This document shows positions 15,580 through 40,600 of a stretch of DNA of 41,359 bases, piece after piece (position 1 is the stretch's first letter; every line of letters starts with the position of its first letter). The translations under genes and the position numbers were made by a program. The notes beneath the pieces were generated by a model, which was not told where the DNA came from, did no database searches, and was given only the letters and a program-made list of their open reading frames with translations. This DNA is from Cochliopodium minus (lineage: Eukaryota; Discosea; Himatismenida; Cochliopodiidae): contig JAMYWO010000040.1 of NCBI GenBank assembly GCA_024220525.1, positions 86,187-127,545 on the forward strand, given 5' to 3'.

Positions 15580-17653
15580 ATGCAAGGAAAATATAAAAAC
15601 TACAAAACAACAAACAAGAAAGCAAAGCAAACCATACAAAGAACAACAAAAAGCAATCTTTCCTCTTCACCAATAATGAAAGAAGATAAAAAATTATTCA
15701 CTGAAAAGATAAAATATGATAATAATTACTTGATTGATCTCGAAAACAAAGGATCTGATAAGCCATCTCTTCAAATTGATATTTGGGAACAAATAAAACA
15801 ATCGCAAGAACTAAAACCTGAAGAAACCCCAAAAAAGGTCGAAGAGGTGAAGAAAGTATCAAAATATTCTGGAACATTCGCAGGGATAAAGAAGAAGGCA
15901 AACAAATACACCTCCACAAATTCCCAAAAACCAATAGCTTCAAAAGGTAAATAAATTTTCTTATAAATTTTTTTTTTTAATTTCAGACTAATTTTATTTA
16001 TTTATTTATTTAGTAGATCTCAAAAAGAGTTTAAAGATAACAGATAATGGATGGAAATCAAGTAGAAATTCTTTAATGGGTTCTGGAGAAAAAGAAAATA
16101 TTGTGAATTTCATCAGAAATTGTATGAATAAGCTTACAGAAAGCAATTATGAGAAGATAATCGGCAATTTCGACATGATTAGCATCGAGAATGAGGATCA
16201 ATTGAAAGAAATAGTAAAGATAATCTTTGATAAGGCCATCTCTGAAAAGATGTACTGTCATATGTATGCCAAACTCTGCAATGATCTCAAAGATAAATTG
16301 GTATTGAAAGAGAGCAAGATTTCTTTCAGAAACATGTTCATTAATGAATGCCAGAATCAATTCGAGAGCGACGAAAAGACGGCTGTGCCTCCATCACACA
16401 TTGTCGAAGAAATGGACAAAGAAGAATGGAAATATAATCAAAAACAAAGAATGTTGGGGAATATGAACTTAATTGGTAAAAGAATAAAATAATTTTCAAA
16501 TTTTTTATTTCATATTAATTTATTTTAAAACTTGATAGCTGAATTATTCAAAATCAATGTACTATGCGAGAAGATCATCTACTCATGCATCCAAAAACTC
16601 ATTGGAGATGTTAACGAACCTAACGAATCCTATCTCGAGCTCTTGTGCAAGTTGATCTCTGGGTTGGGAAAAAAGATTGATAATGAAAAAAACAAAGATC
16701 GCATTAACTCTCTGTTCAATACCCTTGACACCATCTCCACCAAGGTTTGCAGAAGAATATGTTTCATGATCCAAGATCTCAAAATGGAAAGGCAGAATGG
16801 ATGGAGAAGCAAACAACAAGAAATAAAGGAAATTGAAAAGAAAATCTCCTCTACTTCAAATGAAAAAATAGAAAAAGAAAAGACAGAAAAGAAAACACCA
16901 AACGGAAAAAGAATTATTGTGGTTAGGAAGAGCCAAAACAAATCTAATGACAGTCTTTCTTTATCAAATTCCAATCTTTCTTTGTCTTCTACTTTGAACA
17001 TTTCATCCAGTCCTAACAACATTCTCTCTTTGGAAGATAACGAATCTTTTACAAAAATCAAACAAAACTTTGAAGAATATTTTGAAAACGATGAGATTGA
17101 AGAGTTGGAATACTCCCTCTCCCATGATTTCGGTAAAGAAAAGTATCCTTTCGTTTTTGCCAAATCTCTCCTCATTTTCTCCAACTCTCCCAAGAAATAT
17201 GCATTAGTGGTAAACCTCATTCTCTCTTCTTTCAAATCTTCTTTTGACAACAAGAAAATTCTTTCCATTTTTCATTATTTATTCGAAAACTACTCTTCAT
17301 TCAACAAAGACTACCCAAAAATTGATGAAGTGTTAGCTTTCTCTCTATCCAAATTTTTTCCATCCTTTATCAACCTCTCTTTCTTCTCATCTCAATCTTT
17401 TCTTGACCTTCGCGATGTACAACCTTCACACAAACAACCTTCAGACAAGATGGGTACCTCTGCTGTCCTATTCACAAAGTTTTGTGAGTTTTTCCACAAA
17501 GAAAATGGATGGGAAAATTTCAAGGAAAACAGCAGTGATAATTTCGAATTTAACTTAAAATCGATTTTGAAGAGTGGGTCTGTTGAAAGTGATGTCACTG
17601 ATTTTTCTCAACACTATGACATCATCCAAAAATTTTTGTATAATGTAAAATAA
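15580..17653 (+). CDS. Compact eIF4G-like translation initiation scaffold (MIF4G + MA3)
   Basis: Three exons (15580..15946, 16017..16475, 16539..17653) encode 646 aa. The basic N-terminus contains YDNNYLI (Y46 to I52), a match to the eIF4E-binding motif YxxxxL-hydrophobic. Residues about 145-410 form a helical MIF4G/HEAT domain, with typical pieces LYAKLCNDLK-like MYAKLCNDLKDKL, FRNMFINECQNQFE and RICFMIQDLKMERQNGW. A low-complexity Ser/Asn/Leu linker follows. The last about 200 residues (EEYFENDEIEELEYSL onward) read as an MA3-type helical domain. Domain order is that of eIF4G, which bridges cap-bound eIF4E, eIF4A and the 40S ribosome; the N-terminal arm is far shorter than in animals or yeast. 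eIF-iso4G or a DAP5-like paralogue cannot be excluded. Confidence 0.85.
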
Positions 17654-27255: not shown

Positions 27256-29088
27256 ATGAGTGAAGAGTTCTTTGGTAAATTTATTGAATCAGAAAAAAAA
27301 GAAATCAACCATTATTTCAATTCATATTCACCTAAAATTTTAATTTTTATACAGTTGAATTCGATAAAAAAAGTGTATCGGCAACAGTGGACCCCCATAA
27401 CACCACTATACTTGAATTAATCAAGCAAGTAGGTGCAGATCAGGCTTCAAGCTATGTCATTAAAAAAAATGGGAAGGAACTGTTCAAGTATAGCAAATTC
27501 AGTAGGAATAATTTGAATCAAAAATTGAGTGAATTGACAGAAGATAAACCAAAATATCAACCCAAAATGACTCGTATGTTTTTTCCAACATCAGGTATAA
27601 AAAAAAATTTTTTTTTAATATTTTTTCTTTTTCTTTCATTAAATTTATGCAATGATCTTAATTCAAATTATATATTATGGATTTTATTATATGACTTACC
27701 ATTCATCTATCCATTCCATAACCATAAAAATATATTAAAATTTAAATTAAATATCCTTTCAACAATATATTTTATTTTTTTTTATTCCCTCTAATTTCTT
27801 TTTCTATTTTAGGCAAGAGCGGATTTCAATTCTTTCAAGGAAATGAACAATTGATCGGAAACAAGATGGAAAGAGATCAATTGATCAAGATGTACAGAAG
27901 GGAGAACGAATTGAGATTGAGTGAGGAGATTCAACAGAAGATGGATGGATGCCAAATGGACGATGATGATGCATATGCTGATTTGTTGGACAATTTGCAA
28001 AAGGAAGTGTTGAAAGGTAAACAACATTTCTCACAATAATATTATTTTATCAAAATTATTTATAAATTAATAAATTAATAAATTAATAAATTAATAAATT
28101 AATAAATTAATAAATCAATAAATTAATATGATTTTTCCTTTTTTCTAGAATTTGGATATCAAGGATCTGATGAAGATGTCTCTTTATTCAGGCAACAACT
28201 CAGTTTCTATCCTGAAGATAAGGAGCTCAAGTCCATTCCCCTCTACTCCAAATTTAATCGTACAAGAGACGGACCTCTCCAAGTAGGAGATGAACTTTAT
28301 GTAAAAAATAAAAATCAATTCATTTAATTTAATATTATTTAAATCTTTTTTAATTTTATTTTTTATTTTTTTATTTAATTTTTAAAATTTCTATTTTGTT
28401 TAATTCAATTTTGATTTTAAGGATACGACATTGTGTCACATCAATGACCCTAACTCTAGAGTATCATTGGTAGAATTCTACAAACAAGAATGCGATAGAA
28501 GAAAAATCCCACAGGACTCCCCTCTGGTGATCATTGCGGGCAGTATCACCTGACCTCCATTTTTGGTTCACTCTTCTGCTTTAGAAGAGATGAATCAAAA
28601 ATTCTCTCATCTCGGTGTAGTCTTTTTGGCTGTGTACATCACTGAGGCTCATGCTAGAGGTACACATCTTTTTTTATTTAATTTTAATACAATCTTTTTT
28701 ATTAAATTTATTAATTTTAATTCTAATATTTAATTTTATTTATCAAAAAATAATTTTTAACAATTTTAATTTTTGTCAAAAATTTTTATTTTAAACATTA
28801 GACGAATGGCCTTGTGGAAAGTCTCTTTCTTTCTGCGACCAACCAAAAACCAATGAAGAACGTTGCCACCTCGCCAACTTGGCCAAAGAAAAATGCAACA
28901 TCTCCTTCCCCTACCTCGTCGACACCATGGACAATCAATTCGAGTCCGCCTACGCAGCTTGGCCTTTCCGTTTCTACGGCTTCTTGAATGGAAAGCTTTC
29001 TTTGAAACCCCAACCTAATACTCAACATTATGCTTATTTGATAGATGATCTTGAGAATTGGCTTAATGACAACATTTCTCAAAACTAA
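27256..29088 (+). CDS. Iodothyronine-deiodinase-like selenoprotein (in-frame UGA = Sec249)
   Basis: Six exons (27256..27274, 27355..27594, 27813..28016, 28149..28300, 28422..28659, 28802..29088), all phases agreeing, give 379 aa if TGA at 28551-28553 is read as selenocysteine. The context IIAGSIT-U-PPFLVHSSA matches the deiodinase active site GSxT-U-PPF. The frame stays open for another 130 residues of family-like sequence: VVFLAVYITEAHARDEW (deiodinase EEAHxxDxW), then PYLVDTMDNQFESAYAAWP (VDTMxNxxSxxYAAxP) and the C-terminal thioredoxin-fold strand GFLNGKL. It ends at a normal TAA. Residues 1-215 contain a beta-grasp-like start and an acidic helical part with no domain I know. Protist homologues are probably not thyroid-hormone enzymes; a selenol redox or reductive dehalogenase role is inference. 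A candidate SECIS follows the stop. Confidence 0.9.
28056..28130. repeat. 8-mer AAATTAAT tandem repeat in intron 3 of the selenoprotein gene
   Basis: About eight copies of an 8-base AT unit, with one C substitution at 28113, inside the intron 28017-28148. Confidence 0.9.
28551..28553 (+). other. UGA selenocysteine codon
   Basis: TGA directly between ACC (Thr) and CCT CCA TTT (Pro-Pro-Phe), exactly where deiodinases carry Sec. It lies in mid-exon with strong coding sequence on both sides, and the downstream part continues over a correctly phased intron. Confidence 0.88.
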
Positions 29089-29413
29089 TCTTCTTTATTT
29101 TTTCTTTTTGATTTTTTTTTTTTTTGCTTTTTACATTTTTTTCTTCTACTTTTTTAAAAAAAAAAAGGAATTCATTTTCTTTTTTTTTCTTTTTATGATT
29201 ATTTTTGTTCAAATTTTTTATTTTATAGAAAAGACAAATTTATGACAATAAAAATTAGAAAAAAAAAAAATTCTCTTTATTTTCTTTATTTTTCTAAACC
29301 AAACACTTGTTCTCAAACAAAAATTGAATGGTAAAAACAATAAAAAAAAATTAAAATTGAATTAATATAATTTATTTTATTTACAAAATTTTTTTTTGTA
29401 CAGTTTAAAAAAA
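29089..29413. other. 3' region of the selenoprotein gene and convergent intergenic DNA
   Basis: T/A-rich region between the selenoprotein stop and the phosphatase stop (minus strand). It contains the SECIS candidate described separately; otherwise only homopolymer runs. Confidence 0.6.
29178..29262 (+). promoter_or_regulatory. Candidate SECIS element
   Basis: About 105 bp after the stop codon, ATGA at 29195-29198 is followed 12 nt later by AA at 29211-29212, the spacing expected from the SECIS quartet to the apical loop. A 3' quartet partner TGAC lies at 29243-29246. Between them TTTGTT can pair with GACAAA, with a few mismatches nearer the quartet. Below the quartet a T-rich 5' side faces an A-rich 3' side, giving a weak helix I. 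The base composition makes chance pairing easy, so this is a candidate that needs a folding test. Confidence 0.5.
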
Positions 29414-33508: not shown

Positions 33509-34039
33509 TTATAATCCCTCTTTTATCATCGATTGAATGGATTTATGCACACTCATGCTGCACTCTGTAGGTGCGACATTTTTATAGATCGAGACGATAT
33601 AGTGCTTGGAACTCTTCATGACGATCACTCCTGAATGATATTCCCTGCATACCAAGAGATCATCCTCAATCTTCTGTATCACATGTTTTTTGCCCATCAA
33701 ATTCAATCCCTTCTTCAAAGATTCATCCTTCTTAACGAAACTATCAGAGATAAATTTGCATTCCTCCTCAGATAAGTTAAATCCCTCTGAATTTTTCTTC
33801 AATTTACCAAAAAGATCGATAATGGCTACATTTTCTATTGTTTCCTTCTTTATGAGCCCCGATACCAATTCATCTAAGAAATCTGATTCTTTGAGCTTCT
33901 TCTGCTTGATGGATTCTTCTGATTGGTTCTCTTTTCTCTTTCCGTTCTTCACTTCGAGCTTCCCTTCAACTTGCCTTTGCTTTATTTTTTCAATCTCTTC
34001 GTATGCTTTTCTGGTATTTTCATTTCTTTCAATTTCCAT
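33509..34039 (-). CDS. Profilin-like domain with charged N-terminal extension
   Basis: A single exon of 176 aa. Residues 1-60 are a charged K/E/Q coil (EEIEKIKQRQVEGKLEVKNG). From about residue 90 the sequence follows profilin: SEEECKFISDSF, KKGLNLMGKKHVIQKIEDDL, then GVIVMKSSKHYIVSIYKN (compare profilin G-x-x-I-x-K-T-x-Q-x-L-I-x-G-x-Y) and a terminal amphipathic helix SVHKSIQSMIKEGL. Profilins bind actin monomers and proline-rich peptides; the first helix and strands of the canonical 125-aa fold are shortened or unrecognisable here, so binding is uncertain. An in-frame TAG lies just before the ATG at 34039, supporting that start. Confidence 0.6.
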   Translation of the reverse strand: MEIERNENTRKAYEEIEKIKQRQVEGKLEVKNGKRKENQSEESIKQKKLKESDFLDELVSGLIKKETIENVAIIDLFGKLKKNSEGFNLSEEECKFISDSFVKKDESLKKGLNLMGKKHVIQKIEDDLLVCREYHSGVIVMKSSKHYIVSIYKNVAPTECSMSVHKSIQSMIKEGL

Positions 34040-37652: not shown

Positions 37653-40600
37653 ATGAAAGATAATGTTTATAATGAGGTTTATTCTTATATAATTCCTTTT
37701 TCATAATTTTATCTGATTTATACGTTGATTAGTTCATTGAGACCTTGAAGAAGAAAGAGGAAATCGATTCAAAAAGTTTATTTATCGTTCTGAAAGAGAA
37801 TTCCTTACTCGATACCAAAGATAAAGAGGGAAATACGATATTGCATCATCTTTGTGAGAAGATAGAGGATCTGGAACACTTTAAATTTTATTATGAGAAA
37901 ATGGATGGAATAGATAAAAATATGAGGAACAAAGAAGGAGAGACACCATTTTATATGGCATGCAAATCAAATCCCAATTTGAATATAATCTTATTTATGA
38001 TGAATGATTGGCAAATAGATAAGACAATGAGAAATGAACAAGGGAAAGGATATATGCATTATATTTCTCAGAACATCAACATGGAGATAATAAAGCATTT
38101 CCAAGAGGTGAGGAATGATGATTTCCTATTGAAGAACAAGTTAGGGAATACACCGATACATATGGCGGTGAGATACAACACAAATCTCGATGTGATAAAG
38201 TATTTGATAGAGAAGGGATATGATATGAAGATGGGAAACAATTTCAACACAGATTCCATCCTACATTCATTCGTGAATGAGAATCTGGAGATCATTAAAT
38301 TCATGATTGAGAAATTTGAAGTGGATTTCAACAAAATGAAAAACAACAAAGGAAACAATCCCTTGCTCATGTTTTTCTCCCACAACAAGAATCTAAATGT
38401 TATCGAGGCTGTCAAATTCATGGTGGAGAGGGATGATGTAAATCTCGAGGTGGAATCTGAGAAGGGTGACACTATCTTGCATTTGGCTTGTCAAAAATCA
38501 GACAACCTGGAAGTAATAAAGTATTTGATGGATAAAATAAAGGTAATTGAATTAAACTTGTAGTAAATTTAATTTTTTTTTTTCAATATTACATTTAAAA
38601 TTTTTTGGATTTTTAAAACTAATTTAGTTTTTTAAAAATAATTTTTTTTCTTATATTTTGAAATTTTTTTAAGATTTTTTATTAAAGCTTTTTCAAAAAT
38701 TTTTTGAATATCAAACAACCTTATTTTTTAAGAAAGAAATGTTTTTCATTTAAAATTTAATCTCTATTAAAAGATTGATCTTAAAAAAACAAACAAATTG
38801 GGATACAATCTCCTACATTGCGTCTGTTCAAACAACAGAAACCTTGAATTCATAAAATACGTCGTAGAAAAAACCAACCTGGACGTTTCACTACTGACAA
38901 ATGAAGAAGAAAATGCTCTCCACCTTGTATGTTTGTACAATCAAAACTTGGACGTTGTTAAATATTTTATCGAAGAGAAAAAGATTGATATCCATTTGAA
39001 GAATAAAAGGAAAGACAATCCTTTCGAGCTTGCCTGCCTTCAAAACAATAGTTTGGAGGTTGTTAAGTATTTGGTTGGTGTTTATAATGTTACAAGTGAT
39101 ACACTTGACGATTTTGATAACAACGCTCTACATTTTTCTGCAGAAACAAATAAAAAGTAAAAAAAAATTTTGTTAATTTATTTTTAATTTTTAATTTTTA
39201 ATTTTTAATTTTTAATTTTTAATTTTTAATTTTTAATTTCTAATTTTTAATTTTTAATTTTAAATTTTTTTAATTTTTAATTTTTAATTTTTAATTTTTA
39301 ATTTTTAATTTTAAATTTTTTTTTTTGAATTTTAAACAGTATTGAAATAATTAAGTATTTTGTCGAGGAACTAAAATTCGATGTAGATTTAGAAAACCAG
39401 AACGGAAGTACTTGCATTCAATACGCCTGTCTTTCCAACACCTTGGAAGTGGTGAAGTATTTGATTTCTAAAAGTGAAAATGATTCCCAATTCACAAACG
39501 AGAAAAGTTACAATTTTTTTAATTTTTATTATTTTTTGGTTTTTCAGTTTTATTTTTTTTATGATTTTTTTAAAAATTTTTTTATTTTTTAATATTTATA
39601 ATTTCTGTTTTTATGATTTTCTTTTAATATTTTATACTAATATTCATTTAATTTGAGTTTTTTTTTGAATACTTATTAAAATTTATTAAATTTTTTTCAA
39701 AGGCGAAAATTATTTACATTATGCTTGCGAAAAGAGCGAGAGTTTAGAGACAATAAAGTATCTTATTGAAGAAGGAGTAGATTTATCACAAGCAAACGAA
39801 GATTTTGGAAATACACCCTTCCACATCGCATGTTCTTTTAATAAAAATCTCGAGGTGGTCAAATATCTCCACAATGCGATGGAAGACAACTACTATGTGC
39901 TTAACAACAAATCTGAGACTGCTTTGCACGTCGCGTGTGAGTCCAATAAAAATTTGGAAATCATCAAAGTAAATTTTTTTTAATTATTAATTATTTTTTT
40001 AGTATTTATTTAATTTTTCTTTTAAAGATAAATTAAAAATATTGTTTTAAAGTTAATTTTTTAATCAAACAATATTTTTTATTTTTCACTCAATTTTAGT
40101 TAATTATTTCAAATTAAATTTTTTGTTTAAATTTATTTTAAAAATGTTTTTTTTTTCCATTTTAAATCAATAATTTTTCAAAGATATTATTGTTTCAACA
40201 ATTTAATTAAAAATATTGTTCTAAATTTATTTTTTTTTATTTTCAATTGAATAATTATTTTCATTTTTATTAAATAAAAACTCATCATTTCCAAATTAAA
40301 AACTTTTTTTTTTGAACTTTCGTGTAATTTTTATATTTTTTCTAAAAAAAAAAAGTTTTTGATAGAAGTAGGAAAATTAGATCCGACATTGATCAACGAT
40401 ACAGGCTACGACAGCTTGCATTTCGCCTGCTACTCCAACTGCTTGGAAATAGTAAAGTATCTTATCGAAGAACAGGCAATGTCTACCAATGTTCTGACGG
40501 ATGGAGGAGAGACCATCCTTCACTTGGCTTGTGAGAAGAATGACAGTCTTGATGTTGTAAAGTACCTCGTTCAAAATACTAAATTGGATGTAAATTCAAG

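Follow-up and report, generated by a model that had tools for sequence, protein, structure and literature searches.

A predicted selenoprotein of Cochliopodium minus that combines beta-grasp, Protein C10 and deiodinase-family domains

The genome of the discosean Cochliopodium minus (GenBank assembly GCA_024220525.1; 44.65 Mb in 598 contigs) carries a gene that we judge, with high confidence, to encode a selenoprotein, whose in-frame UGA would be read as selenocysteine (Sec) by virtue of a SECIS-like element and whose product would be a soluble protein made of a beta-grasp, a Protein C10 and a deiodinase-family domain. Selenocysteine decoding of this UGA, at 28551–28553, is very likely. Sec-containing deiodinase homologues are already known in protists; what is new here is the ubiquitin-like/C10/deiodinase architecture, in a gene family that comprises six loci or more. 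All positions given below are those of the window, i.e., the whole stretch of 41,359 nucleotides that was analysed (contig JAMYWO010000040.1, positions 86,187 to 127,545 of the forward strand), the G+C content of which ranges from 17 to 31% when calculated in 2-kb steps.

Gene structure and transcript

The coding region, as defined by splice reconstruction and by the open reading frame of a transcript, occupies positions 27256..29088 of the plus strand and consists of six exons (27256–27274, 27355–27594, 27813–28016, 28149–28300, 28422–28659 and 28802–29088) separated by five introns, all of the GT..AG type, and terminated by a TAA at 29086–29088. Splicing yields a product of 379 residues in which codon 249 is the TGA in question, and the approximately 130 family-like residues that the initial annotation had placed after the TGA, across an intron and up to a TAA, form part of this predicted product. 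Of the span that it had assigned to the gene (27256..29262), the start stands and the end does not: coding stops at 29088, and position 29262 is a short way beyond the SECIS candidate, in the 3′ flank.

The transcript-derived EukProt entry P0001 (248 aa), which was examined as a protein only and covers exons 1–5 but not exon 6, is identical to the genome model in 247 of 248 residues, residue 216 being the sole mismatch (genomic N, transcript K), and thereby supports exons 1–5. Its open reading frame, labelled complete, ends directly before the TGA, implying that the stop is present in the assembled mRNA and is neither spliced nor edited out there, an eventuality that had been named beforehand as one capable of overturning the selenoprotein interpretation.

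The deiodinase-family domain

The T4_deiodinase domain (PF00837) extends from residue 212 to residue 373 (28440..29067, plus strand) and is split by the intron at 28660–28801. With a C placed at the Sec position, the Pfam match has E=1.6e-20 and 73.9 bits against a curated cut-off of 27, and the structure chains of DIO3 (4tr3; E=5.4e-14) and DIO2 (9h48; E=3.3e-13) are likewise matched. Residue 249 falls on the catalytic residue of the DIO3 and DIO2 chains, being aligned to Sec170 of DIO3, and the SxT-U/C-PP nucleophile motif is present as GSIT-TGA-PPF; the original proposal that the TGA occupies the catalytic position of GSIT-U-PPF is therefore confirmed. As to the designation “deiodinase-like”, membership of the family holds, while the label itself constitutes no evidence for thyroid-hormone chemistry.

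The features common to the window protein and DIO1–3 (PF00837; 4tr3, 9h48) are the Pfam family, the nucleophile position (170) and, in DIO3 numbering, S167, T169, P171, P172, F173, Y197, E200, H202, W207, R225 and R260; Q218 and Y280 are kept as well. On the other hand, other residues occupy the positions of C168, D211, H219, Y257, F258 and R275, and nothing corresponds to C239; Asp211 has become K, His219 has become P, and Arg275 is aligned with P in one alignment and with T in another. In the accessible parts of two published accounts, roles in substrate binding, as a relay or as resolving residues are attributed to D211, H219, R275, C168 and C239 (PMC7506546, PMC11592359). Only one of the two active-site histidines of DIO1–3 is thus found, His202 being kept and His219 replaced by P in the window protein and in the paralogues C149 and C5 alike; the relative C43 also lacks H202 and W207.

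These data bear directly on whether the protein could be a true iodothyronine deiodinase whose substrates, like those of the vertebrate enzymes, are iodinated tyrosines resembling thyroid hormone. Family membership and the retention of S-x-T-U-P-P-F, Y-x-x-E-A-H and W207 speak for such an activity, as does the existence in Dictyostelium discoideum of a Sec deiodinase homologue (DI, didA) for which the available portion of the report describes a SECIS of type II and a 75Se band that matches (PMC2375036). Nevertheless, the replacement of His219, Asp211 and Arg275 and the loss of Cys168 and Cys239 make it unlikely, even if these losses are indecisive, given that DIO1 and DIO2 also vary at position 275 and DIO2 varies at position 168. 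Furthermore, as stated in the accessible part of another study, didA has been ruled out as the DIF dechlorinase, its null mutants displaying normal activity (PMC3205185); this finding bears on a different substrate. Since several of the residues with which the vertebrate enzymes handle thyroid hormone, such as His219 and the basic residue at 275, are missing, thyroid hormone is probably not the substrate, as judged from sequence comparison.

The N-terminal half

Contrary to the initial annotation, according to which the N-terminal 215 residues match nothing and constitute a novel domain, this half of the protein contains what is probably a domain of the Protein C10 family and, upstream of it, a predicted beta-grasp. 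The latter corresponds to residues 1–68 (27256..27539, plus strand; split by the intron at 27275–27354) and is probably ubiquitin-like, a call that comes mainly from a predicted model with weak structural matches, the top ones being unrelated small proteins. The helical C10 domain (PF14974) corresponds to residues 107–182 (27872..28231, plus strand) and is interrupted by the intron at 28017–28148. In the window protein itself the Pfam P_C10 match lies below the 27-bit cut-off (E=0.096, 13.2 bits), as it does in the transcript form P0001 (E=0.042, 14.4 bits), in the database relatives P0002, P0005 and P0006 (E=1.8e-4, 1.7e-3 and 3.8e-3, respectively) and in the paralogue C5 (18.4 bits); C149 is the sole paralogue in which the cut-off is exceeded (E=5.6e-7, 30 bits). 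P_C10 is matched at E≤0.1 by four of the 11 members of alignment A4, all four scoring under the cut-off.

Nothing significant was retrieved from the PDB when the C10 segment of P0002 was used as query, and the AlphaFold model of the C10 part, being of low confidence (mean pLDDT 63.4), was not used. A genome search with PF14974 returned nothing, which says little because no control matched either and because the domain of C149 spans an intron.

Averaged over 19 residues, hydropathy in the N-terminal half reaches at most 0.59, indicating that this half contains no stretch resembling a membrane anchor. The window protein accordingly differs from DIO1–3 in having a beta-grasp and a C10 domain and in lacking a membrane-anchor-like N-terminal stretch, in addition to lacking His219, Arg275, Cys168 and Cys239. 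Protein C10 (C12orf57/GRCC10, PF14974) is a free-standing small protein, whereas in the window protein the C10 domain lies between the beta-grasp and the selenoenzyme domain.

Paralogues and selection downstream of the UGA

The genome contains at least six deiodinase-family loci, this number being a lower bound. Two paralogues, C149 and C5, found by searching the genome with the window protein, were read as far as the stop, starting at the counterpart of window residue 78; the splice models of these two, as well as those of C43 and C358, are predictions made from genomic DNA alone. The predicted spliced forms of C149 and C5 each contain one internal in-frame TGA, located at the same codon as in the window gene, and in the predicted splicing C43 reads GSNT-U-PPF and C358 reads S-U-PPF. 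A TGA is therefore present at the Sec codon in all five loci in which this codon could be read (window, C149, C5, C43 and C358); at the sixth locus, on contig C10, the exon with the Sec codon was not found by eye, an N being present upstream of the first exon found.

Downstream of the UGA codon the window protein is identical to C149 in 79 of 129 positions and to C5 in 79 of 126, the corresponding values upstream being 92/170 and 84/170, so that conservation is no lower downstream than upstream; C149 and C5 are identical to each other in 72 of the 126 positions after the codon. In this region dN/dS is ~0.30 for window/C149, ~0.19 for window/C5 and ~0.13 for C149/C5, rough values inasmuch as dS is 1.0 to 2.5, and third codon positions represent the largest class of differences in the three pairs (63/120, 63/117 and 67/131). 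Taken as sequence comparisons, these figures indicate that what follows the UGA is under purifying selection in the gene family.

In C5 (L058) and C358 (L019) the predicted splicing has the Sec codon split as TG|A by a phase-2 intron; no genomic frame with an in-frame TGA exists there, and both loci would be missed by scans for in-frame TGA. In C149 (L057), TGA is used twice, as the Sec codon and as the terminal stop.

Seen as proteins, 7 of the 12 database matches (P0001, i.e., the gene's own transcript, P0004, P0005, P0006, P0009, P0010 and P0011) end exactly before the Sec position, which points to mis-annotation, and four others (P0002, P0007, P0008 and P0012) stop upstream of it. The remaining one, P0003, has W at the Sec position (GSFSWPP), which may reflect either a gene caller that renders TGA as Trp or a real TGG.

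The SECIS-like element

A SECIS-like element is located at 29191..29250 of the plus strand, with ATGA at 29195–29198, AAA at 29211–29213 and TGAC at 29243–29246. The same arrangement, an ATGA separated by 12 nt from an AAA and followed farther on by YGAC, with 8 to 10 of 10 possible helix II pairs, is found after the stop codon of all six loci. When formulated as a rule (ATGA-N12-AAA...NGAN with at least 8/10 helix II pairs), it identifies the window site as unique in 82.7 kb, i.e., in the two strands of the window taken together; the rule is also satisfied by 27 out of 5000 shuffled versions of the window flank.

A covariance model (R2) was built, with 4-nt flanks, from seven other elements of the genome (five from paralogues and two from Rdx or SelW-like genes), the window element being excluded. 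Over both strands of the window, R2 ranked the window element first, with 27.8 bits and E=0.0011, the next match having 20.7 bits; the best background match in 54.7 kb of other loci, some of them overlapping, searched on both strands with default filters, reached 21.1 bits. A score of 33.4 bits was obtained for an element outside the model, that of a tandem SelW-like gene; the best match lying outside the elements, antisense to one of them, had 21.8 bits. In the seven elements of R2, 84.4% of the cells are paired, compared with 50.8% in shuffles, and the covariation score is 0.931 as against 0.239, a figure that is inflated because the choice of the seven relied on a pairing rule that had first been noticed in a set of four elements, the window element among them.

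Other analyses were less favorable. An earlier type of model, R1, made of three elements with 12-nt AT-rich flanks, does not have the window site among its 46 matches, and the single-sequence fold of the window element is no more stable than those of shuffled sequences (z=-0.46; 67 of 200 fold as well) and leaves the AAA unpaired. Rfam found no SECIS in the window at the gathering level, nor in the window 3′ flank or in three paralogue loci at the E-value level, and a genome-wide search with SECIS_1 returned nothing, no control being matched either; these negative results are set aside inasmuch as Rfam also misses the stronger paralogue elements.

Tandem SelW-like (Rdx) genes on C79 (L059:1704-2146 and 2338-2778) have an in-frame TGA (WGTS-U-GYR and WCTR-U-GYK, respectively) and a SECIS-like element after each gene, and another Rdx-family gene, on C25 (L060), has a SECIS-like element downstream.

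The thermodynamically ordinary nature of the element and its absence from the matches of R1, together with the existence of a transcript entry consisting of a 248-aa open reading frame labelled complete, would fit a UGA that is a real stop, the gene then encoding a 248-residue protein and the deiodinase part being either a decaying remnant or a sequence reached only by leaky read-through. We consider this very unlikely in light of the degree of conservation after the UGA, of the excess of third-position differences and the dN/dS values of 0.13 to 0.30 over the three pairs, of the TGA found in all five readable loci and of the 27.8 bits scored by the SECIS-like element.

The selenocysteine machinery

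The initial annotation implied that the organism should possess a Sec machinery, and tRNA-Sec, SepSecS, SelD and EFsec were in fact found in the same genome; a lack of such machinery had been named as an outcome that would refute the selenoprotein reading. The tRNA-Sec has the anticodon TCA (UCA in the RNA) and 66.4 bits; SepSecS is represented by five exon matches, the best with E=1.3e-32; SelD (E=3.4e-63) has an open reading frame of 360 aa without TGA and its active site, which we take to be the motif KGCGCK, appears to be Cys. EFsec, on contig C511, matches the eEFSec chains 7zjw and 5izk with 1.4e-37, compared with 8.4e-6 for eIF2gamma. A search for PSTK carried out exon by exon with TIGR03575 gave 0 matches, with a control that matched in only 1 of 14 genomes; a PSTK gene rich in introns could have been missed by it.

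Several other selB matches, out of a total of 18, were considered as EFsec and rejected: C359 was read as eIF2gamma, that on contig C10 as EFL-like, C231, C533 and C271 as EF1A-like and C72 as no EFsec; those at C42:178937 (with a score similar to that of C231), C47, C34, C103, C81 and C42:53468 were left unread. The genome would thus contain both an EFL-like factor (C10:235094, L027; open reading frame of 418 aa without TGA) and an EF1A-like gene (C231, L024).

A reassignment of UGA to Trp or Cys in this organism, with no selenocysteine involved, finds a point of support in the W of the relative P0003 but is extremely improbable, since the window, C149 and C5 proteins have three Trp codons each, all of them TGG, the seven ordinary Cys of the window protein are encoded by TGT or TGC, translation of C149 terminates at a TGA, the open reading frames of SelD and of the EFL-like factor are free of TGA, and tRNA-Sec(TCA), EFsec and SepSecS are present.

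Proposed mechanism

In the selenoprotein that we propose, the UGA at 28551–28553 would be read as Sec under the direction of the SECIS-like element that starts ~100 nt downstream of the TAA; the insertion of Sec itself is something we infer. The product would be soluble and would consist of three parts, namely a beta-grasp that is probably ubiquitin-like, a Protein C10 domain and a deiodinase-family thioredoxin fold with Sec as its nucleophile. It might function as a selenol-based reductase, the Sec attacking a halogen, peroxide or disulfide substrate and a thiol resolving the resulting intermediate. The resolving thiol could perhaps be provided by one of the two omega-loop cysteines (EWPCG..LSFC), which the window protein shares with C149 and C5 and which become candidates for this role because the protein lacks both the proximal and the distal Cys of DIO3. 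The N-terminal domains may act as adaptors, and the protein would most likely serve as a soluble reductase of the selenol type, perhaps as a dehalogenase, that these domains bring into position.

Relationship to known proteins and significance

Among the algal members of the DIO family, 80% are Sec forms, according to the part of the source that is available (PMC7539508). Compared by description, the Dictyostelium and algal proteins resemble the window protein in being Sec-containing protist homologues, and no C10 or ubiquitin-like domain is mentioned for them in the accessible portions of the two reports (PMC2375036, PMC7539508); against these homologues, C. minus is set apart by its six or more deiodinase-family loci. 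A bacterial deiodinase-like selenoprotein of PF00837 with a UxxC motif is listed in a 2026 review, accessible in part; as far as its description goes, it has Sec in the same family but UxxC where the window protein has U-P-P-F (PMC13188914). In the literature searched, which was covered in part, no report of the ubiquitin-like/C10/deiodinase architecture was found, and among the matches listed a single paper, an expression study (PMC10665055), has deiodinase and C12orf57 together.

The presence of Sec deiodinase homologues in organisms that are not known to use thyroid hormone raises the question of the role that this family played before its use by vertebrates, and a single genome offering at least six loci with extra domains and a recognisable SECIS signature represents a tractable case in which this question can be addressed.

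C12orf57 is the product of a human disease gene and we know of no function assigned to it. The fusion described here offers a testable clue to this disease-linked family. It is with reserve, as a tentative idea that may well prove incorrect, that we regard the ubiquitin-like, C10 and Sec deiodinase combination as a selenoprotein architecture that is conserved among microbial eukaryotes and has not been described before; the fusion would then suggest that C10 was ancestrally a partner or adaptor of thioredoxin-fold selenoenzymes or of their substrates.

Other genes in the window

Elsewhere in the window, the minus strand encodes at 33512–34039 a profilin domain preceded by ~56 charged extra residues at the N terminus, and the plus strand encodes an ankyrin-repeat protein at 37733–38560 and, at 15992–17650, a MIF4G domain that is divided between two open frames.
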